A stretch of 53,783 bases of DNA from contig NVXE01000005.1 in the NCBI GenBank assembly GCA_002746975.1, forward strand, positions 59,762 to 113,544. Direction: 5' to 3'. The notes beneath the pieces were generated by a model. It saw nothing but the letters and a program-made list of their open reading frames with translations, was not told the DNA's origin and ran no database searches. The position numbers and the translations under genes were made by a program. Numbering within the stretch: the stretch's first letter is position 1; each line of letters starts with the position of its first letter. This document shows, piece by piece, positions 1,114 to 48,965 of this stretch. Source of the DNA: Bacteroidota bacterium (lineage in GTDB: Bacteria > Bacteroidota > Bacteroidia > Flavobacteriales_D > Sanyastnellaceae).

Positions 1114-4100
1114 TTAGTAACAAGATGTTCCAAAAGTTGTAAGAAGATTCATTAAATCTACAATTGTAACTACCCCGTCTCCATTAAGGTCAGCTGTACA
1201 ATTTGATATACATCCGAATTCTGACAGAACTAATAGCAAATCAGACACATTCCTCTCTCCATCTCCATTTAAATCTCCATTACACCAAGGTAAATCAATG
1301 CAATTTGTAAATGATGATGTTAAAGAAAAATCAACACCCTGACTAGATGCGATAGAATCTCCAAACGGACTTAACCACTCAAAACCTCCAGGCTCTGCGC
1401 AGTATGCATCTAACCAACCATCACCATCTTCATCAGTCCATTGTAAAACCAAACATCCCGCTGGAAGACATAGGGTAATCGATGTGGAGTCACCAGCAGC
1501 GTGGGGTTTTGATTGAAGAATATGAGACGTCGAGTTACCAAAAGACAAAGACCACTTCAAATCAATGGCATTACAACCAGCCCATTCGGATAGAGTGCCT
1601 CTGTATCCTAATCCTGAAACCGTACAGCTTTCATAAGAAGTGTTATTTAGCAAAGTTGGGTCTGTAATGGAATTTATCTCTGTAATCACGAACGATATAG
1701 TGCGAGTTCCAGATGAATCTACAACATGACTAGAAGTAGGAAGAATTGTTAGTGACCCCGGTTCAAGGGGTTGTGAGAAAGTGTGATTGATAGTCGTTGA
1801 CGAATTATCCCATTCTATTTTGTATGTTAGAGACGTAATCGAAGTAAGTCCAGAGTTTAAAACTTTTGGTGAACAATCAAATGTCCAATCACATTGAAGA
1901 CGTTCGAAATTATCAAAGCCCATTGCCGTTAAGTCAAGTACAGGAATATTTAGTAGCGGCACTTCCCATACACCTCTTCCGTATGTTGCTGCTACAAGGC
2001 GATTAGTAGCAGTCCTTATCTCTAAATCTGTAATAATCGTTATAGGTAATTCTGTACCAAACCTCTCCCACCCTATACTTGAATCATAAATAAAAACCCC
2101 CATATCTGTACCCACATACTTCGTTCCAATAGAAGATTCAATAATAGTATTTACAGGAAGGGCTGGCAAACCCAAGGACATATCTACCCAAGTCCCCCCA
2201 GCGTCATATGAAACCCACACTTGATTTCCTGAGACATAACTACCGAAAGTTATCCATATTTCATTAGGGTCAGATGATGAGATCAGGACGTCGCCTATAG
2301 TAGCTCCAGGTAAATTTATTATCTCTGTAAAGTCGTAGCCGTTAGTTGACTTCCAAAGTTCTTCACGTTTGGCAACATATATTAAATCAGGGTTTGTAGC
2401 AGATAACGCTATAGCGTCCGCTTTAGTCGTACTCATAGGTCCTAACGTTGTCCATGTTGATCCTCCGTCATCAGAGCGATGAATCGATTTCTTACCGACG
2501 TAAATAACGTTAGGATTAATAGAACTAGGCAACCAAGGAGTTAACCAGTTACCGAATTCATTAACTCCAGAACCAGAATAATTCGCGATTTGCAAATTTG
2601 TTCTACCTCCATTATCCGATCTGTATAGAAGTCCGTAGTAAGCACTCATAAACAGCTTACTTGAGTCAGAAGCATGATAGAAACATCCCATCCCATCTCC
2701 ATCTAATACTCTTTGCCAACCATCTTTGTTGTATAGTGATGTCCCATTGTCTTGTGTTCCGAGAATCATTTCTGAATGTTCGTGTGGATTAAGACCTAAA
2801 CGATAGATTTGGGCTATATCAAGACCATTAGATTTGTCATCATAAAATCCATTGTTATCTCTTAGATATACTCCTCCATCGTTTGCAACGATCATTCTTC
2901 CATCCTGAAGAAAAGTTATTCCATGTTGATCTGCATGAACTAAAGGATGTGCTCCTTGGCCTGACCAATGAGCATCACAAATCCAGTTCACACCACCATC
3001 GATAGATTCCCATAAATTAACCCCTCCAATAACGATATTGTCAGCATTTAAAGGATTTACAGCTATACACATATCCCACCAAGCTTGTCCCGAATAATCT
3101 GAACCGTCACTTGTCCATCCGTGCATGTTAGGACCACCATTAGATCTTAGCATAACTGGATAAAATGATGCACCGCCATCATCAGACCTCCATACTCCTA
3201 GAGTGGTTTGGGTGAAATAATGTGCTCCGAAAACGTAAACTATATCTGGGTTTGAATCCCCCACAGCTATTTCTATTCTTCCTAAACTTGAAGATTCTGG
3301 TAAATTAACTTGAACCCAAGTTATGCCAAAGTCTGTTGATCTAAATACTCCAACATTTTCTTGAGCAATTGTAATAATATTCGACGAGAAGTTATTAAAC
3401 TCAATATCACGTATAACTCCGGGTTTTATTTGGTTAAAAGAAACTCCTGAGTCAGAAGACCTATATAAACCACTACTAGAAGCAACAAAAATTACGTTAG
3501 AGCTATCGGGATGAAATTCAACTTTAAAAATCTTACCTACTCCATCCACGGGCATTATTAGTCCCGTTGTTTGCCATGAAACACCCGCATCTAAAGTCTC
3601 TAATAAGCCTATGCTATAAGTAGTTGCGCCATCAGAATCTCCTGTTGCCAAATACCAATGATTTAAATTTAATGGATCTACAATCACATCTGTTGCGCCA
3701 ACCGCAGAAAGTGCGTCTACACCCCCGCCAGCAGGATTCCAAGTCACCCCCTCATCCGTAGAAAGCCAAAGCCCTCCAGACGGAGCACAAGCTAACCAAC
3801 CTCCATCATATACCACAACGTTATTAACCCGGCCTGCACCACCAAATATTGGTATGTTATCGTTGCCCGCATACTTCCAAGCACTTCCTATTATAGAACT
3901 TGATCTTGAGTTATTAGACTTCTCATCAACAAAAGCATCCCATAAAGCTCTAGCAGGTGGTCGATTTGAATTTGGAGCAGTTCGTCGTTCAACCCACCAG
4001 GCCCATCTTTCAAATGGTTTCGCTCCATTAGATCTAGGAACAGCACTTCTGTCAGACCATTTAGTTTTAAAAACTTCACGAACTTCTTCAACAGAAACAT

Positions 4101-4227
4101 CAGAATTTTGTAACTCGGACTGCCAGGTAATTTCGTTTTGGCCCCAAACACTACCTCCTACCCAAATGAAATTGAGTAAAACAAACACAGGGAAAAACAT
4201 CCCTCGAATATTAATCGGGCGGCACAT
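1114..4227 (-). CDS. Secreted BNR/sortilin-type beta-propeller protein with C-terminal dockerin-like tail
   Basis: 1037 residues. The N-terminus is a signal peptide; Met10 (at 4200) gives the cleaner one and has a GAGGG just upstream, so the true start may be there. Residues about 110-770 contain many BNR/sortilin-type blades, recognisable by recurring short motifs such as S.DGG.TW, SDDGGASF and RSTDFGITW, as in VPS10-like or GH74-like propellers. A later region has a CLPAGC...DEDGDGW segment that looks like a divergent copy of a module in neighbouring secreted proteins. The last 57 residues (981-1037) hold two EF-hand-like repeats (DLNGDGERNVSD, DLNGDGVVTIVD), each framed by cysteines and ending FGTSCY. 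No T9SS type A domain is visible. Last gene of a minus-strand set with yebC and the FG-GAP protein. Likely a surface or released binding protein; the ligand cannot be told. Confidence 0.8.
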   Translation of the reverse strand: MCRPINIRGMFFPVFVLLNFIWVGGSVWGQNEITWQSELQNSDVSVEEVREVFKTKWSDRSAVPRSNGAKPFERWAWWVERRTAPNSNRPPARALWDAFVDEKSNNSRSSSIIGSAWKYAGNDNIPIFGGAGRVNNVVVYDGGWLACAPSGGLWLSTDEGVTWNPAGGGVDALSAVGATDVIVDPLNLNHWYLATGDSDGATTYSIGLLETLDAGVSWQTTGLIMPVDGVGKIFKVEFHPDSSNVIFVASSSGLYRSSDSGVSFNQIKPGVIRDIEFNNFSSNIITIAQENVGVFRSTDFGITWVQVNLPESSSLGRIEIAVGDSNPDIVYVFGAHYFTQTTLGVWRSDDGGASFYPVMLRSNGGPNMHGWTSDGSDYSGQAWWDMCIAVNPLNADNIVIGGVNLWESIDGGVNWICDAHWSGQGAHPLVHADQHGITFLQDGRMIVANDGGVYLRDNNGFYDDKSNGLDIAQIYRLGLNPHEHSEMILGTQDNGTSLYNKDGWQRVLDGDGMGCFYHASDSSKLFMSAYYGLLYRSDNGGRTNLQIANYSGSGVNEFGNWLTPWLPSSINPNVIYVGKKSIHRSDDGGSTWTTLGPMSTTKADAIALSATNPDLIYVAKREELWKSTNGYDFTEIINLPGATIGDVLISSSDPNEIWITFGSYVSGNQVWVSYDAGGTWVDMSLGLPALPVNTIIESSIGTKYVGTDMGVFIYDSSIGWERFGTELPITIITDLEIRTATNRLVAATYGRGVWEVPLLNIPVLDLTAMGFDNFERLQCDWTFDCSPKVLNSGLTSITSLTYKIEWDNSSTTINHTFSQPLEPGSLTILPTSSHVVDSSGTRTISFVITEINSITDPTLLNNTSYESCTVSGLGYRGTLSEWAGCNAIDLKWSLSFGNSTSHILQSKPHAAGDSTSITLCLPAGCLVLQWTDEDGDGWLDAYCAEPGGFEWLSPFGDSIASSQGVDFSLTSSFTNCIDLPWCNGDLNGDGERNVSDLLLVLSEFGCISNCTADLNGDGVVTIVDLMNLLTTFGTSCY

Positions 4228-4293
4228 AGCATTAAAATACGACTATTTATATCAAAAGTTACGGTTGATACTTAGAATTTAGATTTAACTCAG

Positions 4294-5013
4294 TTAACTA
4301 GAAGAAGACATCGAATGATAAACATTCTGTACATCATCATTTTCCTCTAGTTTATCAATCAGCTTTTCTACTTCTAGTGTCTCAGATTCACCAAGTTCAG
4401 TAGTGGTTGCAGGCACCCTATCAAATCCAGACTCTTGGATTTCTATACCTAATTCTTCAAGTTTTTTCATTAAACCACCGAAAGATTCGAATGGAGCGGT
4501 AATAATTATTATCGATTCATCTACCTCAATTTCTTCAGCACCATAATCTATCAGTTCAAGCTCCAGCTCTTCAGGATCCTGTCCCTCAGAACTGATATTA
4601 AAAAAACATACTCTATTGAATAAAAACTCAACACTTCCAGTAGTCCCTAAATTCCCTCCATTATGAGCGAAATCACTCCTTACACTAGCTACAGTTCGGT
4701 TGTTATTATCCGTTGCAGTTTCTACAAAAAAGGCCACTCCATGAGGTCCGTATCCCTCGAAAGTAACTTCCTTATAACTAGATGTATCTTTATCCGTAGC
4801 CTTCTTAATTGCACGAGCAATATTATCCTTGGGCATATTGGCAGCACGGCAATTCTGAAGTACAGCTCTTAATGTGGAATTCGTATCTGGATCGGCGTTC
4901 CCTCCATCTTTAATAGCTATAATTATATCTTTATTAAGCCTTGAAAAAACTTTAGACATTGCTGACCAACGTTTCATCTTCCTTGCCTTCCTAAATTCGA
5001 ATGCTCTTCCCAT
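4294..5013 (-). CDS. YebC/PmpR-family protein (TACO1 type)
   Basis: 239 residues, the usual family size. The N-terminus (MGRAFEFRKARKMKRWSAMS) is a Bacteroidota variant of the MAGHSKW.NI start. The conserved core follows: NADPDTNSTLRAVLQNCRAANMPKDNIARAIKK split over residues about 39-70, then EGYGPHGVAF and NGGNLGTTGSVEFLF. Family members are cytoplasmic; some were described as DNA-binding regulators, and more recent work links the family to relief of ribosome stalling. It lies 42 bp after the FG-GAP protein gene and 66 bp before the BNR protein gene on the same strand, so it may be co-transcribed with two secreted-protein genes. The family call is very secure; the target is not known from sequence. 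Confidence 0.93.
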   Translation of the reverse strand: MGRAFEFRKARKMKRWSAMSKVFSRLNKDIIIAIKDGGNADPDTNSTLRAVLQNCRAANMPKDNIARAIKKATDKDTSSYKEVTFEGYGPHGVAFFVETATDNNNRTVASVRSDFAHNGGNLGTTGSVEFLFNRVCFFNISSEGQDPEELELELIDYGAEEIEVDESIIIITAPFESFGGLMKKLEELGIEIQESGFDRVPATTTELGESETLEVEKLIDKLEENDDVQNVYHSMSSSS

Positions 5014-5055
5014 AATTATCGTCTCTTTTTGCGAATATCGGCTCCGTTGAATTAT

Positions 5056-6777
5056 TTACCAAGTCGTGTTGCAGAATGTCCCAAATTGAGTTAGTACTAA
5101 TATCAAATCGTGAACAGATGTATAGCCATCATGGTCAACATCTGTCGGGCAAAGGTTCCCCTGAATCGTAGATATACATGTCTGGGTTAAGTCATCCCAA
5201 ACAGTACCTGATCCACAAAACTCTGATGGATTAGGACAAAATTGAACGGAAGAGCCTTCAATTAAAATTATGGACTCGTCAACTAAAATACCAGTAAATG
5301 TTTCATCGATTCCTCCTGGCCAATGGACTATTACCGAATCTACTTGAGTACTTAAACCAAGTCCGAAATGAAGATAACGCGAGTTTTGGCTTAAATATTT
5401 ATCACCGCAAAAAACGACATCGTACTCAAGACCATTAGGATGATACACTGACACTTCGGCACCTATTGCATCTCGATTTGATGTAACTCCTTCAGGCCTT
5501 ATTTTTAAATAATGGTTCCCATTAGGGATTCCACTAATCATAGTAGCATATTCTCCTATCCTATGAGACACCAAATCTGGGAATCCATCACCATTAAAAT
5601 CTCCAGTAGCTATTGAAAATGTAAACTGATCGATTTGAGGTGTCAATAAGGAAACATCAAGAAGTGGTGATAGTCCATCATTCTCAAAAAATACATTTAA
5701 ATTTTCTTGAAACTGATTGAAAACATTAGGATAATCATTATAGGAACTTATACCTGTACCAACATACAAATCAGGCCACATATTATTATCATAATCGACA
5801 AAAGCAGCTCCCCAACAAAGTTTATTTACAGATACTCCTTCTACTACTGTTACATCATTAAAATCACCTGTGGAATTTAGATCATTCTTAAAAAAATAGT
5901 TTCCCAATGGTCCATTTGTCATATATAAATCCATATCTCCATCCCTGTCGTAATCTCCGAAAGTAGAACTCATTGCATAAATTCCTATATCTACACCCCA
6001 CAACATTGCCATATCACTAAATGTGCCGTCTCCATTGTTTAAATAAAACGCATTTAAAAAACTAGTCCTATCGTTAATAATGTGAAGATCTAATAACCCA
6101 TCTTTATTTATATCGATCCACGTACTTTGAAAGGTTTGTTTTAAACCATTACCAACACCTGCAACTTCAGTGACATTAGTAAAAGTCCCATCTCCATTAT
6201 TGTGATAAAGTTCATTCTCACTATTGTTTATAGGTGTGTGATAATTACAGATATATAAGTCCAAAAAACCGTCATTATCGTAATCTCCAAACGATGCTCC
6301 ATAACTCTTAGTATCAGAAGCAGTAGATAAACCACAAGTAGTAGATACATCTGTAAACTGCATTCCACCATCATTTATCCATAAAGAATTTGAAGCATTC
6401 CTATTTGTAACAAGGAAATCTTGATCTCCATCATTATCAATATCAGCCCAAAGAACGGCCTTAGTTTCATTTGATAAATTAGTGATATTAAAAAACACTT
6501 CTTGGAACCCCGTACTATCGCCTTGATAAAATCTCATATTTCCAGCATGATGACCAAAAGTTAAATCATCAATCTCATCTCCATTAAAATCAGCAAAACT
6601 TACTCCTGTTCCTAGAAACCCACCTGTATGGTCAGTATTTAAAGACATTGAATTAGAAACATCAACAAATTGAGCTTGAACATAAAATGAAATTAGTGAA
6701 AACAAAAAGCACGTCAATACCAGCCGTAAGGCCTCTGTTTGAAAATAAATATTTCGATTAATTATATACAAAATCAA
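5056..6777 (-). CDS. Secreted FG-GAP/VCBS repeat protein with ASPIC/UnbV domain and dockerin-like tail
   Basis: 573 residues. The N-terminus has a long basic n-region, a hydrophobic stretch (LVLTCFLFSLISFYVQA) and a likely cut before QF. Residues about 50-430 carry FG-GAP/VCBS calcium-binding propeller repeats (DFNGDEIDD, DIDNDGDQDFLV, DYDNDGFLDLY, DINKDGLLDL, DYDRDGDMDLY, DFNGDGFPDLV). Residues about 430-515 match an ASPIC/UnbV domain (AIGAEVSVYHPNG, VIVHWPGG). A short Cys-containing linker (CGSGTVWDDLTQTC) precedes a single EF-hand-like repeat (DVDHDGYTSVHD) in the last 31 residues, ending FGTFCNTTW. It is divergent from the protease gene at 6877 with 99 bp between them, which must hold both promoters. 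Probably an extracellular adhesin-like protein similar to CRTAC1-type proteins. Confidence 0.82.
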   Translation of the reverse strand: MILYIINRNIYFQTEALRLVLTCFLFSLISFYVQAQFVDVSNSMSLNTDHTGGFLGTGVSFADFNGDEIDDLTFGHHAGNMRFYQGDSTGFQEVFFNITNLSNETKAVLWADIDNDGDQDFLVTNRNASNSLWINDGGMQFTDVSTTCGLSTASDTKSYGASFGDYDNDGFLDLYICNYHTPINNSENELYHNNGDGTFTNVTEVAGVGNGLKQTFQSTWIDINKDGLLDLHIINDRTSFLNAFYLNNGDGTFSDMAMLWGVDIGIYAMSSTFGDYDRDGDMDLYMTNGPLGNYFFKNDLNSTGDFNDVTVVEGVSVNKLCWGAAFVDYDNNMWPDLYVGTGISSYNDYPNVFNQFQENLNVFFENDGLSPLLDVSLLTPQIDQFTFSIATGDFNGDGFPDLVSHRIGEYATMISGIPNGNHYLKIRPEGVTSNRDAIGAEVSVYHPNGLEYDVVFCGDKYLSQNSRYLHFGLGLSTQVDSVIVHWPGGIDETFTGILVDESIILIEGSSVQFCPNPSEFCGSGTVWDDLTQTCISTIQGNLCPTDVDHDGYTSVHDLILVLTQFGTFCNTTW

Positions 6778-6876
6778 TTGATTACGCCCTTTAAGTTAAG
6801 TTAATCTAGTTATACACGCAACTCATCGATTAAATTAGCGTCTTAATGTCGAACCAATTGAAAAAACCATTTCACC

Positions 6877-9309
6877 ATGAGTAATTATAAATCAGTACTA
6901 CTATTATGTTTAGGGGCTATTTTCTCAGTCGCTATTCAAGCTCAAATTTCACACGGAGGAGCCCCTATTCAGTGGGGAAACGCAACATATTCTCCAACGA
7001 TTGACACAAAGTTAATGCCTACACTTGACTTAATAACACTTGCTGCTGAGGATGCTGTTACTGACCAATATAAAGAAGCGCCATGGAGATTTGGGGTTGA
7101 ACACCCTGTTTCATACAACCTTCAAAACTCTGGAACTTGGACTTTCGAAGAAGGCGTTCATGTTTGGAGATTGCAAGTGGACTGCCCAAATGCATTAAAC
7201 ATTAGTTTTATGCTCTCTAGATTCATTCTTCCAAAGGAAGCTGAATTATACGTTTACAATGCTCAAAGAACTGCATATATCGGTTCTTTCACACGTGAAA
7301 ACAATAAAGATTGGGAAGGGCTTTCTTTAGGTATTCTAGACGGATCTTCAATGATTCTTGAATACCACGAATCTCCAGCCTCTTATGGTATGGGTGAAAT
7401 TGAAATAGATCAGGTAGTTCACGGATATCGCTCTTTATTAAATCACCAAGATGCTGTACTAGCTGAAATGGCTGACAGAATGGGACCTTTCGGAAACTCT
7501 GGGGCTTGTAACATTAATGTTAATTGTACAGAAGGTCAACCTTGGCAAACAGAAAAGAGATCAGTAGCTCTTATCGTTAACGGTGGATCTGCATATTGTA
7601 CTGGAGCATTGATTAATAATACTGCGAATGACGGCACTCCATATTTCCTGACTGCAAATCACTGTATAGGAACACCTAACACTTGGGTTTACTACTTTAA
7701 CCACGAAAGCAGTACTTGCGCAGGTTCAACTGGTCCTACAAACCAAAGCATTTCAGGAGGAACTCTTTTAGTACAAAACGGTGGATCTGACTTTGCCTTA
7801 ATACAACTTAGTACTACCCCACCAGCTAGCTTCAATGTAGAATATGCAGGTTGGGATAATTCAGGCACATCACCTACCTCTGCTGTAGGGATTCACCACC
7901 CTAGTGGAGATGTGAAAAAAATATGCTTCCAAAACAATGCTCCTACAATTAATAATACTGGTGGAGCAGATGTTTGGTGGATTGACTCTTGGGAATTAGG
8001 TGTAACTGAGCCGGGTTCTTCAGGCTCTCCTCTTTTTGACCAAAACCATCGTATCATAGGTCAATTATACGGTGGAGCTGCAGCATGTAACGGGTCTGTA
8101 AATAACGGACAATACGATTACTACGGAAGATTTAACGTAAGCTGGGGATTAGGAGCATCTCAATATTTAGACCCACTAAATACAGGAGTATCTACATTAG
8201 ATAGCTATCCTACAAATGCCGTGCCTGGCATGGGTTGTACTGATCCAACTGCGTGTAACTACGATCCAACTGCTACAACTGATAACGGGAGTTGTGTACA
8301 AAATGACGCATGTGGAATTTGCGGAGGTGATGGAACGTCATGCTCTGGATGCACAGACCCTACATCTTGTAACTATGACCCTGCAGCAACTGTTGACGAT
8401 GGCTCTTGTATTGGTAATGGAATTGAAATTACTTTCACAATTCTTACGGATAACTATCCTGGTGAAACTACATGGAGTATAAATGACGCAACGGGTTCTG
8501 TTATTATGTCTGGAGGACCATATAACACTGCATCAACTACATACTCGCAAACTGCTTGTGTTGCCGCTGGTTGTTACGATGTTACAATCAACGACAGCTT
8601 TGGCGATGGTATTTGCTGTGCATACGGCACTGGTAATTATGTGGTTTCATCTCTTGGAACCTCTTTAGTTACTGGTGGACAATTCACTACTACAGAAACC
8701 ACTAATTTTTGTGTTACAAGTGCTGTCGATGTTCCGGGGTGTGTTGATGTTGCTGCTTGTAATTACAACCCATCTGCTACAATAGATAACGGAACTTGTA
8801 ACTATACTTCTTGCGCTGGATGTACTAACACTAATGCTTGTAATTATGACCCGACTGCTACTATTGATGATGGTACTTGTGAAACTTTAAGTTGTTCTGG
8901 ATGTACAATACCTGGAGCATGTAACTATGATCCAACAGCAACTATTAACAATGGAACTTGTGAAAGCATAAGCTGCTCTGGCTGCACTAACTCTACAGCA
9001 TGTAATTATGACCCTGCTGCAACTATAGATAACGGAACTTGTGAAAGTTTAAGTTGTGCAGGATGTACAGATTCAACAGCTTGTAATTATGATTCGACAG
9101 CAACTATTGATAACTCAACTTGTGAATTCACATCATGTGCATGTGTTGGAGACTTAAATGGAGACAGCATGATTACTGTATCTGATATTCTTATAGTGCT
9201 TTCAGAATTCGGTTGTATGTCTGGATGTACTGCTGACGTTGATGGAGATACTTTTGTGAATGTCTCTGACATTCTGGTGATACTCTCAACGTTTGGTTCA
9301 GCTTGTTGA
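6877..9309 (+). CDS. Secreted trypsin-like serine protease with GC-repeat array and dockerin-like tail
   Basis: 810 residues. The signal peptide ends near FSVAIQAQ. A propeptide-like region (about 25-200) precedes a lysyl-endopeptidase-like S1 domain with the full triad: His262 in TANHC, Asp305 in GGSDFALIQL and Ser382 in GSSGSP. After it come two Cys-rich repeats of the GCTDPTACNYDPTA type, a GETTW...GGPY...DSFGDG module (about 515-610), then five tandem 27-residue Cys-rich repeats (about 621-755). The last 57 residues are two Cys-framed EF-hand-like repeats (DLNGDSMITVSD, DVDGDTFVNVSD) ending STFGSAC. No T9SS sorting domain is visible. First gene of a likely operon with 9355 and 11254. Predicted extracellular protease; the specificity is not certain. 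Confidence 0.88.
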   Translation: MSNYKSVLLLCLGAIFSVAIQAQISHGGAPIQWGNATYSPTIDTKLMPTLDLITLAAEDAVTDQYKEAPWRFGVEHPVSYNLQNSGTWTFEEGVHVWRLQVDCPNALNISFMLSRFILPKEAELYVYNAQRTAYIGSFTRENNKDWEGLSLGILDGSSMILEYHESPASYGMGEIEIDQVVHGYRSLLNHQDAVLAEMADRMGPFGNSGACNINVNCTEGQPWQTEKRSVALIVNGGSAYCTGALINNTANDGTPYFLTANHCIGTPNTWVYYFNHESSTCAGSTGPTNQSISGGTLLVQNGGSDFALIQLSTTPPASFNVEYAGWDNSGTSPTSAVGIHHPSGDVKKICFQNNAPTINNTGGADVWWIDSWELGVTEPGSSGSPLFDQNHRIIGQLYGGAAACNGSVNNGQYDYYGRFNVSWGLGASQYLDPLNTGVSTLDSYPTNAVPGMGCTDPTACNYDPTATTDNGSCVQNDACGICGGDGTSCSGCTDPTSCNYDPAATVDDGSCIGNGIEITFTILTDNYPGETTWSINDATGSVIMSGGPYNTASTTYSQTACVAAGCYDVTINDSFGDGICCAYGTGNYVVSSLGTSLVTGGQFTTTETTNFCVTSAVDVPGCVDVAACNYNPSATIDNGTCNYTSCAGCTNTNACNYDPTATIDDGTCETLSCSGCTIPGACNYDPTATINNGTCESISCSGCTNSTACNYDPAATIDNGTCESLSCAGCTDSTACNYDSTATIDNSTCEFTSCACVGDLNGDSMITVSDILIVLSEFGCMSGCTADVDGDTFVNVSDILVILSTFGSAC
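8737..9141 (+). repeat. Five tandem 81-bp repeats inside the protease gene
   Basis: The stretch holds exactly five 81-bp units coding for 27 residues each, pattern GC-(V/T)-x3-AC-NY-(D/N)-P-x-AT-I-(D/N)-(D/N)-G-T-C-E-x2-SC-x. Every unit has five cysteines in fixed positions. The DNA copies are similar but diverged, which points to an old expansion kept by selection on the cysteine frame. Unit boundaries were checked in frame: the first Gly codon is at 8737 and the next domain begins at 9142. Confidence 0.85.
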
Positions 9310-9321
9310 TTTTCAACTATC

Positions 9322-9344
9322 TTGTGAGTTAAAGAAGCTCACAA
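9322..9344 (+). other. Intercistronic hairpin
   Basis: A 7-bp stem (TTGTGAG with CTCACAA) and a 9-nt loop lie between the protease gene and the next start codon at 9355. There is no T run, so it is not a typical terminator. It could shield the upstream message or partly attenuate read-through. Confidence 0.3.
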
Positions 9345-9354
9345 AGTAGACACT

Positions 9355-11220
9355 ATGACTTTTAATATAAAACAAATGATAGGAGCGGTGGCCATATTTT
9401 TGACCTCCGCTTCTGCATTTACTCAATGTACTACTTGTGCACCTGATTACACATGTGTCGCAAGCGGTTACCCAATACTTTGTCCTGAAACTCTTCCTGA
9501 TGGAACTACAGGTGTCGCATACGAAACTACTGCTACATTTAATATGCCTGGAACAGTTACAGACCCTAGTTCTGGAGTAGATGCATCTCTTGAAAGTATA
9601 ACTATTACAAGTATTACAGGCTTGCCTTATGGTCTTACGCTTACTCCCAGCAACCCCGATGGCATATATTACCCGGCAAGCGGCGAGAATTATGGTTGTG
9701 CAACTATTTGTGGAACGCCATTAGCTGCAGGCCAATATTTTGTAAGCATAAATGTTGCCGTTGTTGCTTCAGCTTTCGGATTCACTCAAACTTTAAATGA
9801 AACTTTCTCTCTTCCTCTCACGATTATTCAAGGTGAAGGAGGAGGAAATCCAAGTTTTTCAACTTCAGAAACAACAGGCTGCTCACCTTTAACTGTTGAT
9901 GTTGTTAATACTATCACAGGTCCCGGGGTTAGTTATGCTTGGGATTTCGGCGGTCCTTCAAGTGGTTCTACTATTACTTTGGATATATTAACTGATGACT
10001 ATCCTGGAGAAACGACCTGGATGATTACAGATGAAACTGGTGGGGTAGTCATATCTGGAGGCCCTTACTCTTTAAGCCAAACCCTATTTTCAGAAACCAT
10101 TTGTTTAGGTCCCGGTAATTACACTCTTATTGTAACAGATAGCTTTGGTGATGGAATGCAGTATGGAGGTGTTGTGGGTAATTATGCTCTAACAGATGGA
10201 GCAGGTGTAATCCTTGCTGAAATTGTAGCTGGAGGGAACTTTGGTACTCAGAGTATACATTCATTCACTATCGATTCTACTTCAGGACCTGGTGGATGCA
10301 TTCTTACTACGAGTAATCCTTCCGTAGTTTATGATATTCCGGGTACTTACAATCTTTCGCTAACAACTACTGTTAGTGAATTGACATTAATCGGACTAAA
10401 TATAATAACACTTGCAGGAGGTTGGAGTGGAGATGTAGAGGAGTTTTTTTGGGGCGCGCCCGATCCATTTTTTGTAATTGGGGGTGATGCTTCTTATACT
10501 TCTGATTGGATTGGAGATACTGAAACTCCTAATTTTACTGGATTAAGTATCCCTTTAGATTATGGCGGGACATATTCCTTTTCTTTTTATGATGATGATG
10601 ACATCTCTGCAAATGACTTCTTAGGAACCGCAAATTTCGTCGCGAATGTTCCTGGAGAGTTTACAATTAGTGGAGGAGGAACAACTGCTATACTTTCCAT
10701 AGTTGAAACTGTTAGCTCTCAATTTATAGATAGTGAACTGATAACAGTTTTTGAATCTCTAAATGTATGGGCTGATATAGATGGAGATGGTTATGGAGAC
10801 TTTAACGTGCCGATTAATGGATGTGACACATCTATTACTACAACATTCGCTTTTAACGGCGAAGATTGTAACGATGGTGATGCTTTAATGTTTCCAGGTG
10901 CTCCTGGCACATTTAGCGGAATAGACAACGATTGTAATTCGATTATTGAGGGTGATGAAATAATTACGATACTGGGCTGTGTTGATCCACTTGCTATAAA
11001 CTACGATCCTACAGCAACAACTTCAGATGGTACATGTGAGTATATTATATGTTCTGGTGACTATAATAATGATGGTGTAATTTCAGTAAGCGATTTATTA
11101 GAACTACTTTCAACTTTCGGATGCACGTCTAATTGTGTAACTGACTTAACTGGTGATGATATGGTGAGTGTTGGTGATTTACTAAATTTACTCTCTCTAT
11201 ACGGAACTAATTGTCCCTAA
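9355..11220 (+). CDS. Secreted modular protein: Ig-like domain, DSFGDGM module, MopE-type motif and dockerin-like tail
   Basis: 621 residues with a signal peptide ending near SASAFTQ. The N-terminal part (about 25-165) is a putative Ig-like domain (CPETLPDGTTGVAYE, CGTPLAAGQYFVSI) related to the protein at 11254. A PKD-like fragment (SYAWDFGGPSSG) is interrupted by a GETTW...GGPY...DSFGDGM module (about 203-285). Residues about 470-545 carry a MopE-like metal-binding motif (DIDGDGYGDF, EDCNDGDALMFPGAP, IDNDCNS). One GC-type Cys repeat follows, then two Cys-framed EF-hand-like repeats in the last 56 residues, ending YGTNCP. It is 45 bp after the protease gene. I see no enzyme active site; it is probably a surface or matrix binding protein. 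Confidence 0.78.
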   Translation: MTFNIKQMIGAVAIFLTSASAFTQCTTCAPDYTCVASGYPILCPETLPDGTTGVAYETTATFNMPGTVTDPSSGVDASLESITITSITGLPYGLTLTPSNPDGIYYPASGENYGCATICGTPLAAGQYFVSINVAVVASAFGFTQTLNETFSLPLTIIQGEGGGNPSFSTSETTGCSPLTVDVVNTITGPGVSYAWDFGGPSSGSTITLDILTDDYPGETTWMITDETGGVVISGGPYSLSQTLFSETICLGPGNYTLIVTDSFGDGMQYGGVVGNYALTDGAGVILAEIVAGGNFGTQSIHSFTIDSTSGPGGCILTTSNPSVVYDIPGTYNLSLTTTVSELTLIGLNIITLAGGWSGDVEEFFWGAPDPFFVIGGDASYTSDWIGDTETPNFTGLSIPLDYGGTYSFSFYDDDDISANDFLGTANFVANVPGEFTISGGGTTAILSIVETVSSQFIDSELITVFESLNVWADIDGDGYGDFNVPINGCDTSITTTFAFNGEDCNDGDALMFPGAPGTFSGIDNDCNSIIEGDEIITILGCVDPLAINYDPTATTSDGTCEYIICSGDYNNDGVISVSDLLELLSTFGCTSNCVTDLTGDDMVSVGDLLNLLSLYGTNCP

Positions 11221-11253
11221 ATTGATATAACACGTACTCAGAAACAAATTAAA

Positions 11254-12027
11254 ATGAAAAATATACTACTCGGTTTTTTTGCCATACTTACTATTGGAAG
11301 TGCCGCAGCTCAATGTACAGCTGACTTTAATTTTGGGCTTGAAACTTCAGGGATTTCGCCAAATCCTAACCTGGGGGAACAGTTTGCTCCTGCAATTGTT
11401 CTGCAACCTTATTATGATGTTCTACATATTCTAATTCCGCAATACGTTCTAGAAATTGATTCTACACTCCCCTTCTCTCCTACTACTCCACTTGATTCTA
11501 TCGAGTTAATAAGCATAGTAATGGTAGATTTAAATGACACTCTAACTACTTATACTCTTCCTCAAATCGGACTAGATGTCGTTTGTAACAACAATGGAGA
11601 TTCAGGTAATCCGTGTTCTTTTTTAGGAGGAAATCAGTACTGTGCAAGCATTGAAGGAACTCCTTTTCTTTCAGGCAGTTATAGAGCCGATATTACTGTA
11701 AAAGGTTGGGTTACGGTTTTTGGTTTCCCCTTCGGACAAGAACAACTATTTGGATCTCTAAATCTAAATATTGGTACAGAAGGATGCATGGACCCGCTTG
11801 CTGACAATTATGACCCTGCTGCGGTTATTGATGATGGATCTTGCTCTACAGCAATTGCCTGTTTTGGAGATTTAAACGGTGACTCAAGTGTATCCGTAGC
11901 TGATCTGTTATTGATCTTATCCGAATTCGGATGTACTTCAAATTGTAGTACAGACCTTAATAATGATGGTGTAACTAGTGTAGCAGACCTACTTGAATTA
12001 CTCTCTGTGTTTGGTACTCAATGTTAA
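11254..12027 (+). CDS. Small secreted protein: Ig-like domain, one GC repeat and dockerin-like tail
   Basis: 257 residues. Signal peptide MKNILLGFFAILTIGSAAAQ. The body (about 25-175) is related to the N-terminal domain of the preceding protein, as shown by the shared YC-A-S-I-x-GTP-x-x-SG-Y pattern and the following VFGFPFGQ / AFGFTQ stretch. A single GC-type repeat (GCMDPLADNYDPAA) comes next, and the last 55 residues are two Cys-framed EF-hand-like repeats (DLNGDSSVSVAD, DLNNDGVTSVAD) ending FGTQC. It is a minimal version of the architecture of its neighbour and lies 33 bp after it, so it is likely co-transcribed. The function is unknown. Confidence 0.75.
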   Translation: MKNILLGFFAILTIGSAAAQCTADFNFGLETSGISPNPNLGEQFAPAIVLQPYYDVLHILIPQYVLEIDSTLPFSPTTPLDSIELISIVMVDLNDTLTTYTLPQIGLDVVCNNNGDSGNPCSFLGGNQYCASIEGTPFLSGSYRADITVKGWVTVFGFPFGQEQLFGSLNLNIGTEGCMDPLADNYDPAAVIDDGSCSTAIACFGDLNGDSSVSVADLLLILSEFGCTSNCSTDLNNDGVTSVADLLELLSVFGTQC

Positions 12028-12126: not shown

Positions 12127-14577
12127 ATGTTTAAGTATCTACTATATATAAGTGTTTCTATTGTTCTGCTCACATCTACTCAAGTAGTTTTTGCACAATG
12201 CAATACGACGGTCAGTTTTGATGTAAATCTTTCAGCTGCACAAACCGCAAATCAGAATCTAGTTCTTAGTGGCACATTAACTCAAGTTCAATTTAATTTA
12301 AACTTTTCAGCTAATGGTGCTGAATGGCCCGCTGATATGATAGTAATCATAACAGGAGCTAATGGAAATTGTATGGCTGGAGAAGGATATAATATTAATC
12401 CTCCATCAAGCTGTTTTGCTATAGATTTTCCAGGCGGCTGGACATCTAGTACAAATGGATTCTACACATATACTATGTCAGCCGCAGCTGCAAACATATC
12501 TGGTGATGGAACCTGGTTGTTTTCTGTCCAAAATGGCTGGACATCTGCATCAAGTACTAATTACGACTTAGATATTGTTCTTTTCGGGGTTTGTGATCAA
12601 GGTGATTGCATGAACGTGTGGGCTTGTAATTATAATCCAAATGCTGCTTATGAAGACAATTCATTCTGTATCTATCCTGAATTTGGTTATGATTGTAACG
12701 GTAATTGTAATGCTGACGAAGATGGAGATGGTGTATGTGATATGTTTGAAGTTCCTGGATGTGACGACTTAGCTGCATGTAACTTCTCTTTATTAGCAAC
12801 TGACAACGACGGTTCATGCGGATATGCAAATCTTGATGAAGACTGTGAGGGTAATAGTCTTATACCACATTTCAATAATGCTCCTGAAGATATTTCGGTA
12901 AGTTGCTCTATGGTTCCCAATGCACCCACAGTGTACGCCTCTATTTCATCGTATGCCTCGGTTTTTGAAGCTGAACATAATCCAGACGGAAATTGTTATG
13001 CCGCTGTATGGGGAGTTACAATAGTTATGGATGAGAGTACTTTTGAAGGAAATTGCCCTGGAGAATACTCCATTGTTCGTCATTGGGTCGGAACAGATTG
13101 CATGGGGAGGCAGGTCGAACATACACAAACAATTTCTGTAATTGACAATACAGCCCCAGTTTTCACTTTCGGAATAGAACCTGTTACAACTACATGCCCT
13201 ATCCTACCTGCGTTCGAACAACCTATAGCAGAAGATGTTTGTAGTTCTCCAGTTGTTTACAATATTGAAGCAGAGTCTATACTTCCTGGCGAATGTGATG
13301 GTCGCTATTCTATTTATCGTCTTGTAACAGCTACAGATGCTTGTGGCAATAGTTCAACTGTAGAACAGGTAATTGAAGTAAATGATGAAACTGGGCCTAT
13401 TTGGTCTGAATTATTGCCAGAACAAGTTATTTCGTCAGCTATTGAAACCGAAGATTTCGGAATGCCAGTGGCGATGGATTTATGTAGCGATGTAACAATT
13501 CAAGTCGTGTCAGAATTAGGCCCAGGAATTTGTCCTCTAGCTGTTGAACTAACCAGGACTTTTATTGCTACTGATGCTTGTGGAAATGAGAGTGTCCCTT
13601 TTGTTCAAGTGATTAATGAGGACACTGATTTATTTACGTTTATTTCAGCTACATCTGATGCAACTTGTTCTTACTCTAGTGATGGATATGTCGTAGTTGA
13701 AACTTCTGGAGCAGTACCTCCTTATGATTTGTATTTCGGAAATGTCAATCCAGAAGCATTGTCTTCAGGAGAGTATACTGTTACTGTGAGTGATGCAAAT
13801 CTTTGCTCAACGACTCTTGACTATAGTATTTTCGCTCCTCCAGCACTTCAACTTTCACTAGAAAGTACAGAGCCCAACTGTTCCGATATGTTTTCAGGTA
13901 CAGTCACTGCAACAGCTGCCGGTGGAACAGGAGATTTAACTTATGACTGGGGGGGTATAAACCCCTTAGCCGTTGCTGGTGGGAACTACACCATAACTAT
14001 AGAAGATGAGAATGGATGTACTTTATCAGACGAAGTCATTGTAGAGTCTGCAATAATTCCAGTTGTTGGAGTTATTGATGGAAATACAGAGGTCATGTAC
14101 GGTGACTCAAGTGTTTATGAATACACTTATACCGCAGGAAGTTCGTACGAGTGGATGTTTTCTGGTGCAGATTCTCTAGTTGTTTCAAACATATTCGCTA
14201 TCTCATTACTTTGGAGCACAGAAGGCCCTGGGTATGTGTGTGTAACTGAAACAAATGCTTTCGGATGCGTCGGAGATCAGGTTTGTATTGAAACAAATGT
14301 ATCTGTGGGCGTTAATGAGCAATCGAGCGACATGAGTCATGAAAACCTTTATGTATTCCCTAACCCGTCCTCAGGTAAGTTCAGTTGCCACTTACCAGAG
14401 TCACTAAGTGGAGCTTTGGAGTGGAGTTTAATTGATTTAGGCGGTGCAATTGTTGGTAATGGATCTCTTTCCGCTAACTATGTTTCAGACCAAACTTTTG
14501 ACTTCTCACACTTATCAAATGGTAGCTACCTTCTTATTCTTGGAGACCATGCTATCTCTGTTCAAATAGCACGATAA
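12127..14577 (+). CDS. Secreted HYR/P-domain protein with T9SS type A sorting domain
   Basis: 816 residues from the ATG at 12127; a TTG nine bases upstream is in frame but less likely. Signal peptide MFKYLLYISVSIVLLTSTQ.., cut near VFAQ. The N-terminal region (about 25-155) resembles a proprotein-convertase P-like or jelly-roll domain. Two GC-type Cys repeats and a DEDGDGVCD loop follow, then several HYR-like Ig domains (VIDNTAPVF, VTATDACGNSS, FIATDACGNES), SprB-type repeats (GNYTITIEDENGCT) and a PKD-like segment. The last 80 or so residues form a T9SS type A sorting domain (VFPNPSSGKF ... LSNGSYLLIL). It differs from its upstream neighbours in having this domain and no EF-hand tail. Likely a surface adhesin or matrix protein exported through the T9SS. 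Confidence 0.82.
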   Translation: MFKYLLYISVSIVLLTSTQVVFAQCNTTVSFDVNLSAAQTANQNLVLSGTLTQVQFNLNFSANGAEWPADMIVIITGANGNCMAGEGYNINPPSSCFAIDFPGGWTSSTNGFYTYTMSAAAANISGDGTWLFSVQNGWTSASSTNYDLDIVLFGVCDQGDCMNVWACNYNPNAAYEDNSFCIYPEFGYDCNGNCNADEDGDGVCDMFEVPGCDDLAACNFSLLATDNDGSCGYANLDEDCEGNSLIPHFNNAPEDISVSCSMVPNAPTVYASISSYASVFEAEHNPDGNCYAAVWGVTIVMDESTFEGNCPGEYSIVRHWVGTDCMGRQVEHTQTISVIDNTAPVFTFGIEPVTTTCPILPAFEQPIAEDVCSSPVVYNIEAESILPGECDGRYSIYRLVTATDACGNSSTVEQVIEVNDETGPIWSELLPEQVISSAIETEDFGMPVAMDLCSDVTIQVVSELGPGICPLAVELTRTFIATDACGNESVPFVQVINEDTDLFTFISATSDATCSYSSDGYVVVETSGAVPPYDLYFGNVNPEALSSGEYTVTVSDANLCSTTLDYSIFAPPALQLSLESTEPNCSDMFSGTVTATAAGGTGDLTYDWGGINPLAVAGGNYTITIEDENGCTLSDEVIVESAIIPVVGVIDGNTEVMYGDSSVYEYTYTAGSSYEWMFSGADSLVVSNIFAISLLWSTEGPGYVCVTETNAFGCVGDQVCIETNVSVGVNEQSSDMSHENLYVFPNPSSGKFSCHLPESLSGALEWSLIDLGGAIVGNGSLSANYVSDQTFDFSHLSNGSYLLILGDHAISVQIAR

Positions 14578-31076: not shown

Positions 31077-32036
31077 TTAACGTGTTACCACGAAGTTAGT
31101 TGCTTGAGAGAAATCCTTATGAATAGCAGTCAATGTGTAAGTACCAGCAGCTAAAGAGTGCTTAATCACTAGACGATTACCTCCAACAACATCTTGTTGT
31201 GTGTACTCGCTTGCAAGAACAATCTTACCAGTTAGGTCAGTAGCTTCAATGATGATGTTCTGGTCACCTAAAACAAGCTCAGAGTCAAACTGCATGCTGA
31301 AAGATGATTCGAATACTGGGTTAGGAAATACGTTAAATTTTGTATCAGCATCTATACCTACTAAACCGTCAGTAGCTTGACCTTCGCAAGAACCGTCGTT
31401 ATATGTTGCATCAGAACTGTAGTTAGCTGCATTAGTATTAGTGCAACCGAAAACTTGAGCGTCTGTTGTAGAGAATGTCAAGTCGTGAGCGCGCCATGTT
31501 CCACCTTCACCATCACGTCCTTGAAGGTTAAGAACACCAGTAGCAGTTCCGTCAGTTGTAAGTTGCATTAAAAGCACCTTGTTACCAACTTCAGCAGCAG
31601 CTTGAACGTCAGTAGGAACAACAAACCAAGCTCCATCAGTAACAGTAAGCTCGTTACCAGCTAGGAAGTTTGTGTAATCAATACCTATAGTCCATAAGTT
31701 ATTGTTTTCGCTGTTATCAGCTCCAACAGTTACCCAGCTATCAAAAGCTAAAGCAGGCTCTAAACCTACAATCGCTTCATTCACATCAAGTGAAGAAGAA
31801 GATCCGAACTGGTGCTGGAAGAAAGTTCCAGTTGTAGCAACGTTTAATACGTGCTCTTCAGCAGCGAAAATCGCGTGAAGTGAATATTGAGCAGAAGGAA
31901 GTACTGCGTAAACACGGTATGTGTTTCCAGGTACAAGCCCTCCATTGTCTACTGCCTCTACTACCAACTCGACGTTGTTAGCGTTAGCTCCAAAGCCCAT
32001 TAAAAGGGCGGCGGTCATTGCAAAAAGATTCTTCAT
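31077..32036 (-). CDS. Probably abundant secreted protein with T9SS type A sorting domain
   Basis: 319 residues. Signal peptide MKNLFAMTAALLMGFGANA. The body (about 20-195) is a single beta-rich domain (GNTYRVYAVLPSAQYSLHAI, DGAWFVVPTDVQ, VLLMQLTTDGTATGVLNLQG) of a type I have seen in secreted marine proteins, with no known function. One GC-type repeat follows (GCTNTNAANYSSDATYNDGSC split over 199-219). The last 85 residues are a T9SS type A sorting domain (FNVFPNPVFESSF ... LAAGTYTLTAI). Codon use leans to AAC, TAC, TTC, CAC and CGT, unlike the neighbours, and there is a strong terminator, both signs of high expression. Exported by T9SS to the surface or medium is inferred. Confidence 0.82.
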   Translation of the reverse strand: MKNLFAMTAALLMGFGANANNVELVVEAVDNGGLVPGNTYRVYAVLPSAQYSLHAIFAAEEHVLNVATTGTFFQHQFGSSSSLDVNEAIVGLEPALAFDSWVTVGADNSENNNLWTIGIDYTNFLAGNELTVTDGAWFVVPTDVQAAAEVGNKVLLMQLTTDGTATGVLNLQGRDGEGGTWRAHDLTFSTTDAQVFGCTNTNAANYSSDATYNDGSCEGQATDGLVGIDADTKFNVFPNPVFESSFSMQFDSELVLGDQNIIIEATDLTGKIVLASEYTQQDVVGGNRLVIKHSLAAGTYTLTAIHKDFSQATNFVVTR

Positions 32037-42969: not shown

Positions 42970-43872
42970 ATGAAACAATTTTTACTTCCATGTGCTCTTC
43001 TTGTTTTCAGTTCAGCCTTTGGCCAAACTCCTTTACTTGAGGAAAACTTCGATTCTTATACTGTAGGCGATTACATCGGAGAGGTAAGTTCGGTTTGGAC
43101 TACTTGGAGTGGTGTTACTGGTACTGATGAGGATGCTCAAGTTAGCGATGAGCAAGCTAGTTCAGGCACTCAATCATTAAAGATTTTCGGATCTACTGCA
43201 GGAGGTCCTATGGACGTTTATCTCCCTATAGGTCTTGAAACAGCTTACGAAGTAAGTTATAACATATACGTTCCTTCTGGAAACTCTGCTTATATGAATG
43301 TTCAAGAACAACTAACGCCTGGAATGTTATGGGCATTTGATATTGTTTTTGCTTCAAGCGGACAAGTAAGCTTTGGAATTGACCAAGTAGTTCTTGCTTA
43401 CGGAACTTATACTCAGGACTCTTGGACTACACTCTCGATGAGAATGGATCCTGTAAATGATAGAGCTGAAATTTATGTAGGTGGTGAATATCTTGCAAAT
43501 GTTGCTTTTGATGGAATAATTGGAGGAATTGACTTCTTCGGTTTCGGAGATGGAATGACTCCAGGTCTTTACTACATAGACGACTTAGTAATTGTTGAAA
43601 CAGACGACGTTGTCAACGGGGTTTCTGAAGCATCAGCTCTAGACCTTAGGTTCGGCCCTAACCCTGCTAGTAATTTCATACAAATCACAAGCAATACTAA
43701 TAACGGAATCATTCGCATAATGGCTTTAAACGGTCAAGTTGTTAAAGAAATTTCTGCTACTAACCTAAACTCTGGTAAGCATATAGATCTTGATCTTGAC
43801 AATGGAATTTATCTTATCGAACTTACTTCTAACAACTCTCGCACAATGCGTAAACTTGTTGTCAGTAAATAA
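42970..43872 (+). CDS. Secreted lectin/jelly-roll-like protein with T9SS type A sorting domain
   Basis: 300 residues. Signal peptide MKQFLLPCALLVFSSAFG. Residues about 22-215 look like a concanavalin-type jelly-roll (EENFDSYTVGDYIGEVSSVW, SGTQSLKIFG, RAEIYVGGEYLANV, FYYIDDLVIVE-like end), as in many carbohydrate-binding secreted proteins. The last 75 residues are a T9SS type A sorting domain (LRFGPNPASNFIQI ... LDNGIYLIELTSN). Probably exported to the surface by T9SS. It has its own terminator at 43895. Ligand unknown. Confidence 0.83.
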   Translation: MKQFLLPCALLVFSSAFGQTPLLEENFDSYTVGDYIGEVSSVWTTWSGVTGTDEDAQVSDEQASSGTQSLKIFGSTAGGPMDVYLPIGLETAYEVSYNIYVPSGNSAYMNVQEQLTPGMLWAFDIVFASSGQVSFGIDQVVLAYGTYTQDSWTTLSMRMDPVNDRAEIYVGGEYLANVAFDGIIGGIDFFGFGDGMTPGLYYIDDLVIVETDDVVNGVSEASALDLRFGPNPASNFIQITSNTNNGIIRIMALNGQVVKEISATNLNSGKHIDLDLDNGIYLIELTSNNSRTMRKLVVSK

Positions 43873-47393: not shown

Positions 47394-48965
47394 CTACTCA
47401 CAAGTCAAACCGTAAGCAGAAAGAAGAGTTAATAAATCATTTGAATCAACAGTACCATTATAATTTGTGTCAAAATAACAACCTGGTGAAAGGGATACAG
47501 CTTCACAAACTCCCAACTCCGAGTTCCAAAATGTTCCCGCTCCACAATACTCCTCAGGAACAATATTCCCAAAACAATCATAGCCAATTATATCAAACAA
47601 ACAACTGCCATCATCATCATTTGCTATTGAGTTGTAGTTACAAGCAATCGAGTCAGTACATCCAAAAACTTGAGGGTGATAAATCATTGTATATGTAACT
47701 GAACTTGTATTTAAACAACCATCTGTTGCAGTTAATGTTCGTACGATAGTTTCAGCTAAATCTGACCCTTGAGAATCATCGACAGTAATAATTTCTGAAA
47801 CTTCAACAAAAGAATTAACATCACAATCATCAATAATTTCATATTCAGGAATTGGAATTACATCTCCATTTATCCAATAAATCTCTGTGAAAGCTGGAGG
47901 AGATGATGTGAAAACAGGAGGTAAACTATCTACGAATGTTACAATTTGAGAAGTTTCCGTAGAATTGCCACATGGGTCCGTAATAGTAAATGTTCGGGTT
48001 ACGACACGTTCTCCAGGACAGTTTCCTTGTATTTCATTTACCGATTCTGTCAACATTGACGTTGCACAGACATCATAATGGTTTGGCAAATCTGATGGTA
48101 TATCGTCTTCACAGTAGAGTGTTATATCGGGAATAATTGTTTCAAATACAGGTGGGACATCGTCAATAATAGTGATAATTCGAGTAGCATAGGAAGTAGC
48201 TCCACAAGCATCGGTTAGTGAATAGTTTTGGACTGAAGAACCTGTACAACTTGAAAATAAACTATTATTTTCTTCTATATATACTAACCCTTCTGGACAG
48301 TCATAAGTTGCTGATTGTAATGAAACGGATGCTAAACACGAAACAGTATCATTTACAGGTACATTTATAAAAGATGGCGGCATCGTATCATGAACATACA
48401 CAGATCTGGATTCAATTGTCGTATTGCCACAATTATCAAATGCAGTAATAGTATAGTTAATTAAGGTCACTCCATCACAATATTGTGACTGGACAGAATT
48501 AAATGACAATGAAATAGTTGATTGGCAGTTATCTTGAGCTGAGGGGTAAATACTTGTGAAACTTGATTCGCATACGTGAGCACCGTCAATGGGACTAAGT
48601 ATTATTGGAGGGGTCGTGTCATTAAAATATAGGTATTGTGATGATTCGATTACATCTCCACATATTTCTGCTGACCAAACTCTTTCAATAGTGAATGAAT
48701 TCTCACAATCTCCATTAAGGTTATTATCCAAGTAGTCTAAAATTAGAGTACCATTACACATACTTCCCACAGTATCTAATAATACACTTGGGTGTGCAAA
48801 ACTTGTTGGCAAATCATCATCACAATTGAGATACAGATTGTCAGGAAAATCTGAGAATGATAATATAGGAGTAGTTGATTGCGCTAATAATTCGTGTCTA
48901 TATAAAAAGAACAAAGGAATCAACAATAATAAAATTTTAAAATGACTCATGGAATAAGTTGACAA
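47394..48965 (-). CDS. Secreted HYR-repeat protein with dockerin-like tail
   Basis: 523 residues. Signal peptide about 1-28 (FKILLLLIPLFFLYRHELLAQ). Residues about 35-415 are HYR-like Ig domains with the usual phrases (NDTTPPII, ITAFDNCGN, SLTDACGATS, FTITDPCGNST) and paired cysteines. One GC-type repeat (GCTDSIACNYNSIAN) follows, then a CGAGTFWNSELGVC linker like that in the FG-GAP protein, and a single EF-hand-like repeat (DTNYNGTVDSND) in the last 28 residues, ending YGLTCE. No T9SS sorting domain. Shares its architecture with the 1114-12027 cluster though 35 kb away. Probably an extracellular adhesin or matrix protein. Confidence 0.8.
   Translation of the reverse strand: MSTYSMSHFKILLLLIPLFFLYRHELLAQSTTPILSFSDFPDNLYLNCDDDLPTSFAHPSVLLDTVGSMCNGTLILDYLDNNLNGDCENSFTIERVWSAEICGDVIESSQYLYFNDTTPPIILSPIDGAHVCESSFTSIYPSAQDNCQSTISLSFNSVQSQYCDGVTLINYTITAFDNCGNTTIESRSVYVHDTMPPSFINVPVNDTVSCLASVSLQSATYDCPEGLVYIEENNSLFSSCTGSSVQNYSLTDACGATSYATRIITIIDDVPPVFETIIPDITLYCEDDIPSDLPNHYDVCATSMLTESVNEIQGNCPGERVVTRTFTITDPCGNSTETSQIVTFVDSLPPVFTSSPPAFTEIYWINGDVIPIPEYEIIDDCDVNSFVEVSEIITVDDSQGSDLAETIVRTLTATDGCLNTSSVTYTMIYHPQVFGCTDSIACNYNSIANDDDGSCLFDIIGYDCFGNIVPEEYCGAGTFWNSELGVCEAVSLSPGCYFDTNYNGTVDSNDLLTLLSAYGLTCE

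Follow-up and report, generated by a model that had tools for sequence, protein, structure and literature searches.

The element described here is a Cys-framed, dockerin-like tail at the C-termini of secreted proteins, found on a 53,783-nt window of contig NVXE01000005.1 (GCA_002746975.1, positions 59,762 to 113,544; feature coordinates below are those of the window). Its closest described counterparts are cohesin–dockerin systems and the sorting domains of the type IX secretion system (T9SS). The nearest precedent is the inferred scaffoldin of the Cloacimonadota: Ca. Stygibacter carries C-terminal dockerins on signal-peptide enzymes and a multi-cohesin scaffoldin of 3,755 aa, for which attachment by a conserved C-terminal domain (CTD) was inferred (PMC8542988). 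This complex belongs to another phylum, and the passages on it show neither a Cys-framed half-dockerin nor a swap with T9SS domains. The 'Planctosome' of freshwater Planctomycetes resembles our case as a non-cellulosomal use of cohesins and dockerins that involves peptidases and HYR domains (PMC6461901); it differs in phylum, its proposed anchor is a lamin tail domain, and its passages do not mention T9SS. The T9SS sorting domains of types A, B and C, as treated in the relevant parts of PMC10202324, are also C-terminal and occur on the same kinds of secreted protein, but 0 of the 39 tailed open reading frames (ORFs) of the window's genome match type A, and the tail excludes the T9SS domain.

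Among named domain families, PF00404 and NF041540 ('GC-type dockerin domain-anchored protein') share the calcium-loop pattern of the tail, and the genome searches place five double tails above the cut-off of NF041540, along its full length, and three above that of PF00404. Unlike these families, the other tails score below the cut-offs, 22 of the 39 are half-dockerins, and the tail is framed by Cys, ends the protein and alternates with the T9SS domain. The likeness to the cellulosome lies in a cohesin module (PF00963), recognised by profile and predicted fold outside the window's family. This cohesin, of which the searches found no copy in the window's family, is attached to a T9SS sorting domain, and the proteins carrying the tail in the window are trypsin-like and M43 proteases and BNR, FG-GAP and HYR proteins. 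We rejected a cellulosome proper, as neither a multi-cohesin scaffoldin nor any cohesin was found in the genome.

Seven ORFs of the window (1114, 5056, 6877, 9355, 11254, 47394 and 49106) end in the tail. Its repeat is close to C-x2-D-x-N-x-D-G-x5-D-L-L-x2-L-x2-F-G-x2-C and stands once at the ends of 5056, 47394 and 49106 and twice at those of 1114, 6877, 9355 and 11254, with 0–4 residues past the last Cys in all seven. In a genome search with a profile built from their 11 repeats (A2), the seven score E values of 2.6e-14 to 2.4e-11, which show strength and not independence, as they are the profile's own seeds. An earlier note on this DNA had described these ends, the signal peptides of the seven proteins, their lack of a T9SS domain and the lack of a tail on the three T9SS proteins of the window (12127, 31077 and 42970), and all of this was borne out. 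No T9SS domain of type A or B was found in the seven by Pfam and NCBIfam at E<=0.1 (type C was not searched for). The domains of the three T9SS proteins differ in strength: as a protein, 42970 clearly passes the TIGR04183 cut-off of 23 bits (43.2 bits), 12118/12127 stays narrowly below it (21.8 bits) and passes PF18962 (32.6 bits, cut-off 27), and 31077 is below the cut-offs of both TIGR04183 and PF18962, at 19.4 and 19.5 bits, yet its domain is full-length and C-terminal.

Judged by its sequence, the tail is a dockerin-type module, or half of one, single or double and framed by Cys. PF00404 (cut-off 22.9 bits) exceeds its cut-off at 3 places in a six-frame search of the genome and matches 17 of the 39 tail proteins at E<=1. 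NF041540 (cut-off 29 bits across 67 positions) places 5 of the 17 double tails above its cut-off in the genome search and 9 below it (14.0–28.2 bits), with 3 unlisted. The tail of 1114 is above the cut-off in both genome searches (PF00404 25 bits, NF041540 30 bits) and below both when scored as a whole protein (21.7 and 24.4 bits). In a Cys-framed tail profile of 50 repeats (A3), the calcium-ligand columns hold D in 50/50, N/D in 47/50, D/N in 49/50 and D in 50/50, in rows chosen for this pattern. The Cys-framed profile collected 167 tails from all loci: both framing Cys residues are present in 162 (shifted by one residue in 2 of these), only the last is missing in 3 and both are missing in 2; one double tail lacks both inner Cys residues and keeps the outer pair. 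The tail probably binds Ca2+, and the double tails probably form an outer and an inner disulfide. So compact, Cys-framed and terminal a module could also be a cap, stabilised by Ca2+ and disulfides, that shields the C-terminus and has no part in docking, but a cap leaves the exclusion of T9SS domains, the swapping between paralogues and the neighbouring cohesins (all described below) unexplained, and we hold it to be very improbable.

The mutual exclusivity of the two C-termini, claimed by the earlier note for the window, extends to the whole genome (2.39 Mb, 95% complete). A2 gives 75 matches at E<=1, and 39 ORFs have a repeat no more than 62 residues from their C-terminus (17 double, 22 single), 36 of them with the terminal Cys 0–4 residues from the end. 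The remaining A2 matches are weak or internal and were not counted; many lie near the N-terminus of ORFs of ~265–390 aa, which we take, by eye, to be FISUMP proteins. TIGR04183 gives 86 matches at E<=1, and 70 exceed the cut-off. Across 408 ORFs of stretches that surround these A2 and TIGR04183 matches, with T9SS-domain ORFs called by a profile built from the genome's own domains, there are 39 with a tail, 78 with a T9SS domain and 0 with both; in the fetched stretches of all three family members (i.e. this genome and two relatives that are 99–100% complete) the numbers are 85, 102 and 0. A hydrophobic stretch near the start is present in all 27 tail ORFs with a complete N-terminus (N-termini judged by eye), in line with the signal peptides of the earlier note; this crude score is not specific, because 98 of 239 control ORFs pass it too. 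Three large proteins (loci L079, L081 and L084, on contigs C10, C7 and C13) have a variant end, CPDFNGDGxxQxxDLxDFLxxWG, without the final Cys. Clusters of the FISUMP-like ORFs, whose N-terminal DxDxDG-like motif is weakly matched by the tail profile, lie at C2:123500-128500 and C2:214500-220637.

The proteins that end in the tail have close relatives that end in the T9SS domain. For a BLAST search we removed tails and sorting domains and masked Cys-rich repeats. Of the 39 tail proteins 37 served as queries, and 24 of these have, at E<1e-15, a relative in the same genome that ends in a T9SS domain, against 1 among 191 other ORFs and 1 among the 84 of these whose N-terminus is hydrophobic. One of the two tail ORFs outside the query set is among the 191, without a match. 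In the sets of the three family members together, a T9SS relative was found for 55 of 83 tail proteins. One such pair (L071 2545 and L272 895) is 55% identical over 695 aa and another 65% over 373 aa; in the window, T9SS relatives were found for 6877 (72% over 273 aa), 11254 (49% over 173 aa) and 49106 (33% over 215 aa). In a tandem duplication (L068:757-3858, 57% over 424 aa), one copy ends CPGDINMDGFLTAIDLLGFLSIFGSFCP and the other in a T9SS domain. Pfam domains common to both sets include Sortilin-Vps10, LTD, HYR_4C, TSP3 and PKD_4 (the tallies cover the 25 commonest of 150 families in T9SS proteins, 76 of 78 of which were scanned, and of 77 families in tail proteins, and could miss a lone cohesin among the T9SS proteins). 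The relatives of these 24 proteins therefore indicate that the tail takes the place of the T9SS domain on cargo of the same kind.

Such replacement on close paralogues, the tandem genes included, is what would be expected if the T9SS translocon, or a dedicated adaptor, recognised the tail directly as a sorting signal of a new type, without a separate receptor; that the family with the most tails has no detected cohesin fits as well. However, the tail resembles a dockerin by sequence, a T9SS-sorted cohesin adjoins it in other families, and the T9SS signals treated in the relevant parts of PMC10202324 are of other types, the type A structures there being Ig-like. We therefore consider a directly read signal unlikely.

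Across 295 genomes of the class, tail profile matches occur in 26, or in 25 after removal of one genome (G202) whose match is internal. The three genomes of the window's family each have at least 28 matches, and the other genomes, which fall into nine further family-level groups, have 1–4. Outside the family, a single conserved client protein that ends in the tail is encoded at 19 of the 23 loci shown. We fetched client loci with patterns that match the client body close to its N-terminus, and used the best 80 of 89 loci, some of which repeat genomes of the first locus set. All 75 complete clients end in a tail and none in a T9SS domain, though the search patterns lay near the N-terminus. The client belongs to a conserved cluster (domains checked on a few members) of a TonB-dependent receptor, a T9SS protein with a domain that we named VEK, a FISUMP protein, the client, a large VEK T9SS protein and often small T9SS proteins, one of them weakly matched by PF00963 (E 0.08). 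The gene after the client, separated from it by a median of 42 bp, has VEK and a T9SS domain in 61 of 61 complete cases, and a cohesin in 43 of 61 by one profile.

Both profile and predicted fold identify the neighbouring module outside the window's family as a cohesin. PF00963 matches 10 of 19 aligned modules at E<=10 (best 2.3e-9), and a profile of the module matches 11 PDB entries, 9 of them cohesins, though none is significant singly (E 0.09–1.7). The predicted model (pLDDT 95.3, pTM 0.88) finds solved cohesins as its top PDB matches, with a Foldseek value of 4e-6 to 2jh2_B and a Z of 13.0 to 2vo8 (116 residues, 2.4 A). Of 96 complete cohesin ORFs, 86 have a type A sorting domain by our own profile, a median of 11 residues after the cohesin, and none has a tail; the other 10 are ~1000 aa long, and both of the 2 checked have a type B domain. 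A cohesin profile (A13) finds the module in 16 of 25 tail genomes vs 9 of 270 others (Fisher 3e-14, phylogeny ignored). By gene neighbourhood and co-occurrence, the cohesin is the likely partner of the tail outside the window's family. In one receptor (L153:11729-15124), an internal Pfam dockerin (residues 768–815, 27.7 bits) precedes the cohesin and seems, by eye, to be itself preceded by a second cohesin-like stretch; from this arrangement of dockerin and cohesin, receptors might chain to each other. Two proteins of ~990 aa (L122:11961-14930 and L130:2363-5338) have an N-terminal cohesin, and similar proteins of L213 and L214 have a type B domain; the gene adjoining the first two presumably encodes a PorP/SprF-like protein.

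Starting from what was computed here (i.e. the tail, its position and exclusivity, its dockerin-like sequence, the paralogue swapping and the adjacent T9SS-sorted cohesin outside the family), we favour, with moderate confidence, the reading that the tail is a minimal dockerin that serves as a C-terminal docking signal, with tailed proteins docking onto T9SS-displayed receptors. A signal peptide would take the tailed protein across the inner membrane. The tail would then fold around Ca2+, and a disulfide joining its first Cys to its last would lock it, giving one clamp in single tails and, in double tails, an outer pair plus an inner CxxxC pair. It would bind a receptor module on another protein with a T9SS sorting domain of its own, and the tailed protein, presumably located at the surface, would reach it as a passenger of T9SS cargo, needing no T9SS domain itself. 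A more specific version is possible but doubtful: tailed proteins would fold in the periplasm and dock by the disulfide-locked half-dockerin on the T9SS-tagged receptor, both being carried through the T9SS together, and in the window's family this would have grown into a parallel route used by dozens of proteins, whose receptor, possibly VEK, can no longer be recognised as a cohesin. One T9SS tag would then export a second protein.

Several findings weigh against docking on a cohesin. The window's genome and its two relatives, where the tail is most abundant, gave no cohesin with PF00963 or with three profiles used in our cohesin searches (A5, A6 and A13), nor did the 694 ORFs of the fetched family stretches, where the lowest-E matches (3e-4 and 2e-3) are, by eye, presumably citrate synthases. 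Elsewhere, 18 of the 61 neighbour genes have no cohesin by the profile used, A13 finds none in 9 of the 25 tail genomes (two of the nine have PF00963 at E<1e-3, below cut-off), nine genomes have an A13 cohesin and no tail, and the co-occurrence counts ignore phylogeny. As a dockerin the tail is also imperfect: the best whole-protein PF00404 score, 22.7 bits, is just below the cut-off, and the single tails are only half a dockerin, with tandem repeats in 17 of 39. Lastly, dockerins occur inside T9SS proteins of other lineages (the L153 receptor, L333 and L335), so that exclusivity is a property of the terminal Cys-framed tail and not of dockerins generally. At least one neighbour scored as cohesin-less (L190) seems by eye to hold a divergent cohesin. 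The proteins of L333 and L335, from class genomes, combine internal dockerin-like repeats with a T9SS domain and were found via PF00963 below its cut-off. An A5 match in the window's genome (E 0.26), by eye not a cohesin and presumably a DNA polymerase III-like ORF, and a PF00963 match in G292 (E 0.66), likewise not a cohesin by eye, were both discarded.

The claims of the earlier note that reach beyond the window fared unevenly. It had seen no cohesin, which holds for the window's genome at 95% completeness and fails in relatives, where a T9SS-sorted cohesin lies next door. Its alternative C-terminal signal of this lineage is indeed T9SS-exclusive, borne by the same kinds of proteins and expanded in one lineage, but it is not confined there. 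The search of relatives that it proposed yielded terminal tails in 25 class genomes, 16 of them with an A13 cohesin. In the ORF sets compared, no terminal tail accompanies a T9SS domain; the match in G202 is internal, and internal dockerins do stand beside T9SS domains in other lineages.

In the window's family, the leading candidate receptor is the VEK domain (profile A7; consensus GSVTYRxYxDMxPGYK..LDSWxSxG..QxTTDG), which Pfam did not match in the handful of proteins that were scanned and which has no sequence match in the PDB. It occurs in 34 of the 295 class genomes, in 25 of 25 tail genomes (25 of 26 with G202) vs 9 of 270 others (Fisher 4e-29, phylogeny ignored). Tail and VEK are both multiplied in the window's family, with 39, 35 and 33 VEK matches, often two per domain, and in the sister family three of seven genomes have both and four neither. 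These counts, together with the 61 of 61 genes after the client, would fit VEK rather than cohesin as the receptor in this family and perhaps everywhere. The model predicted for a VEK domain of the window (31455-31979) is a beta sandwich (pLDDT 81, pTM 0.80), and 10 of 50 rows in a second look at structure matches are cohesins (four of them one protein) at Z 5.0–6.2. These values are, however, tied with those of unrelated folds, including other beta sandwiches; the best row (Z 7.2) is not a cohesin, and Foldseek gives nothing under 1e-3. VEK and cohesin profiles show no similarity, nine genomes have VEK without a detected tail, and VEK domains also occur on tailed proteins of the window's family, so VEK may be mere cargo. 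We regard VEK as the receptor in place of the cohesin, in this family and perhaps everywhere, as quite unlikely, and, with dissimilar profiles, no PDB sequence match and a tied fold match, we did not take VEK for a cohesin itself. One family member (G062) keeps the client operon, within which two VEK proteins have a double tail in place of the T9SS domain that terminates others; its gene after the client encodes a VEK protein of 2358 aa in the T9SS set, with no cohesin recognisable by eye.

The question raised by the tail, with docking as the favoured reading, is whether proteins without a T9SS domain can reach the Bacteroidota surface by binding proteins that have one. If so, secretome prediction, which is based on counting T9SS domains, would change, and the tail would offer a small C-terminal tag. 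The earlier note had called the tail not yet described. In the open-access literature we found no paper on the 'GC-type dockerin', and none of the passages retrieved describes T9SS-sorted Bacteroidota cohesins or the replacement of T9SS domains by a Cys-framed half-dockerin at the terminus. Novelty thus holds only in part: NF041540 names a related domain, and non-cellulosomal cohesin–dockerin systems are known, as the passages cited above describe (PMC8542988, PMC6461901).

Table 1. Tails, sorting domains and VEK domain of the window, in window coordinates.
Feature	Protein	Position	Strand	Evidence
Double tail	Sortilin/BNR protein 1114-4227	1117..1284	-	A2 matches C2:60959-61045, 60881-60961
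Single tail	FG-GAP/UnbV_ASPIC protein 5056-6777	5059..5151	-	A2 match C2:64832-64912, E 5.9e-14; 4 residues past last Cys
Double tail	Trypsin-like protein 6877-9309	9142..9306	+	A2 matches C2:68903-68989, 68987-69067
Double tail	Protein 9355-11220	11050..11217	+	A2 matches C2:70811-70897, 70895-70975
Double tail	Protein 11254-12027	11860..12024	+	A2 matches C2:71621-71707, 71705-71785
T9SS sorting domain, no tail	12118/12127-14577	14353..14550	+	PF18962 32.6 bits, residues 746-811
Weak T9SS type A sorting domain	31077-32036	31086..31331	-	TIGR04183 22.1 bits (genome search), 19.4 (protein)
VEK domain (name coined here)	T9SS protein 31077-32036	31455..31979	-	A7 89.4 and 59.1 bits (the sequence is a row of A7)
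T9SS sorting domain, no tail	42970-43872	43657..43863	+	TIGR04183 C2:103418-103624, 45.8 bits
Single tail	HYR_4C protein 47394-48965	47397..47480	-	A2 match C2:107161-107241
Single tail	M43 metalloprotease 49106-51028	49109..49192	-	A2 match C2:108873-108953

A further repeat, GCTxxxAxNYxxxAxxDDGSC, lies directly ahead of either type of C-terminus, in the trypsin-like protein 6877-9309 of the window and in many other tail and T9SS proteins.

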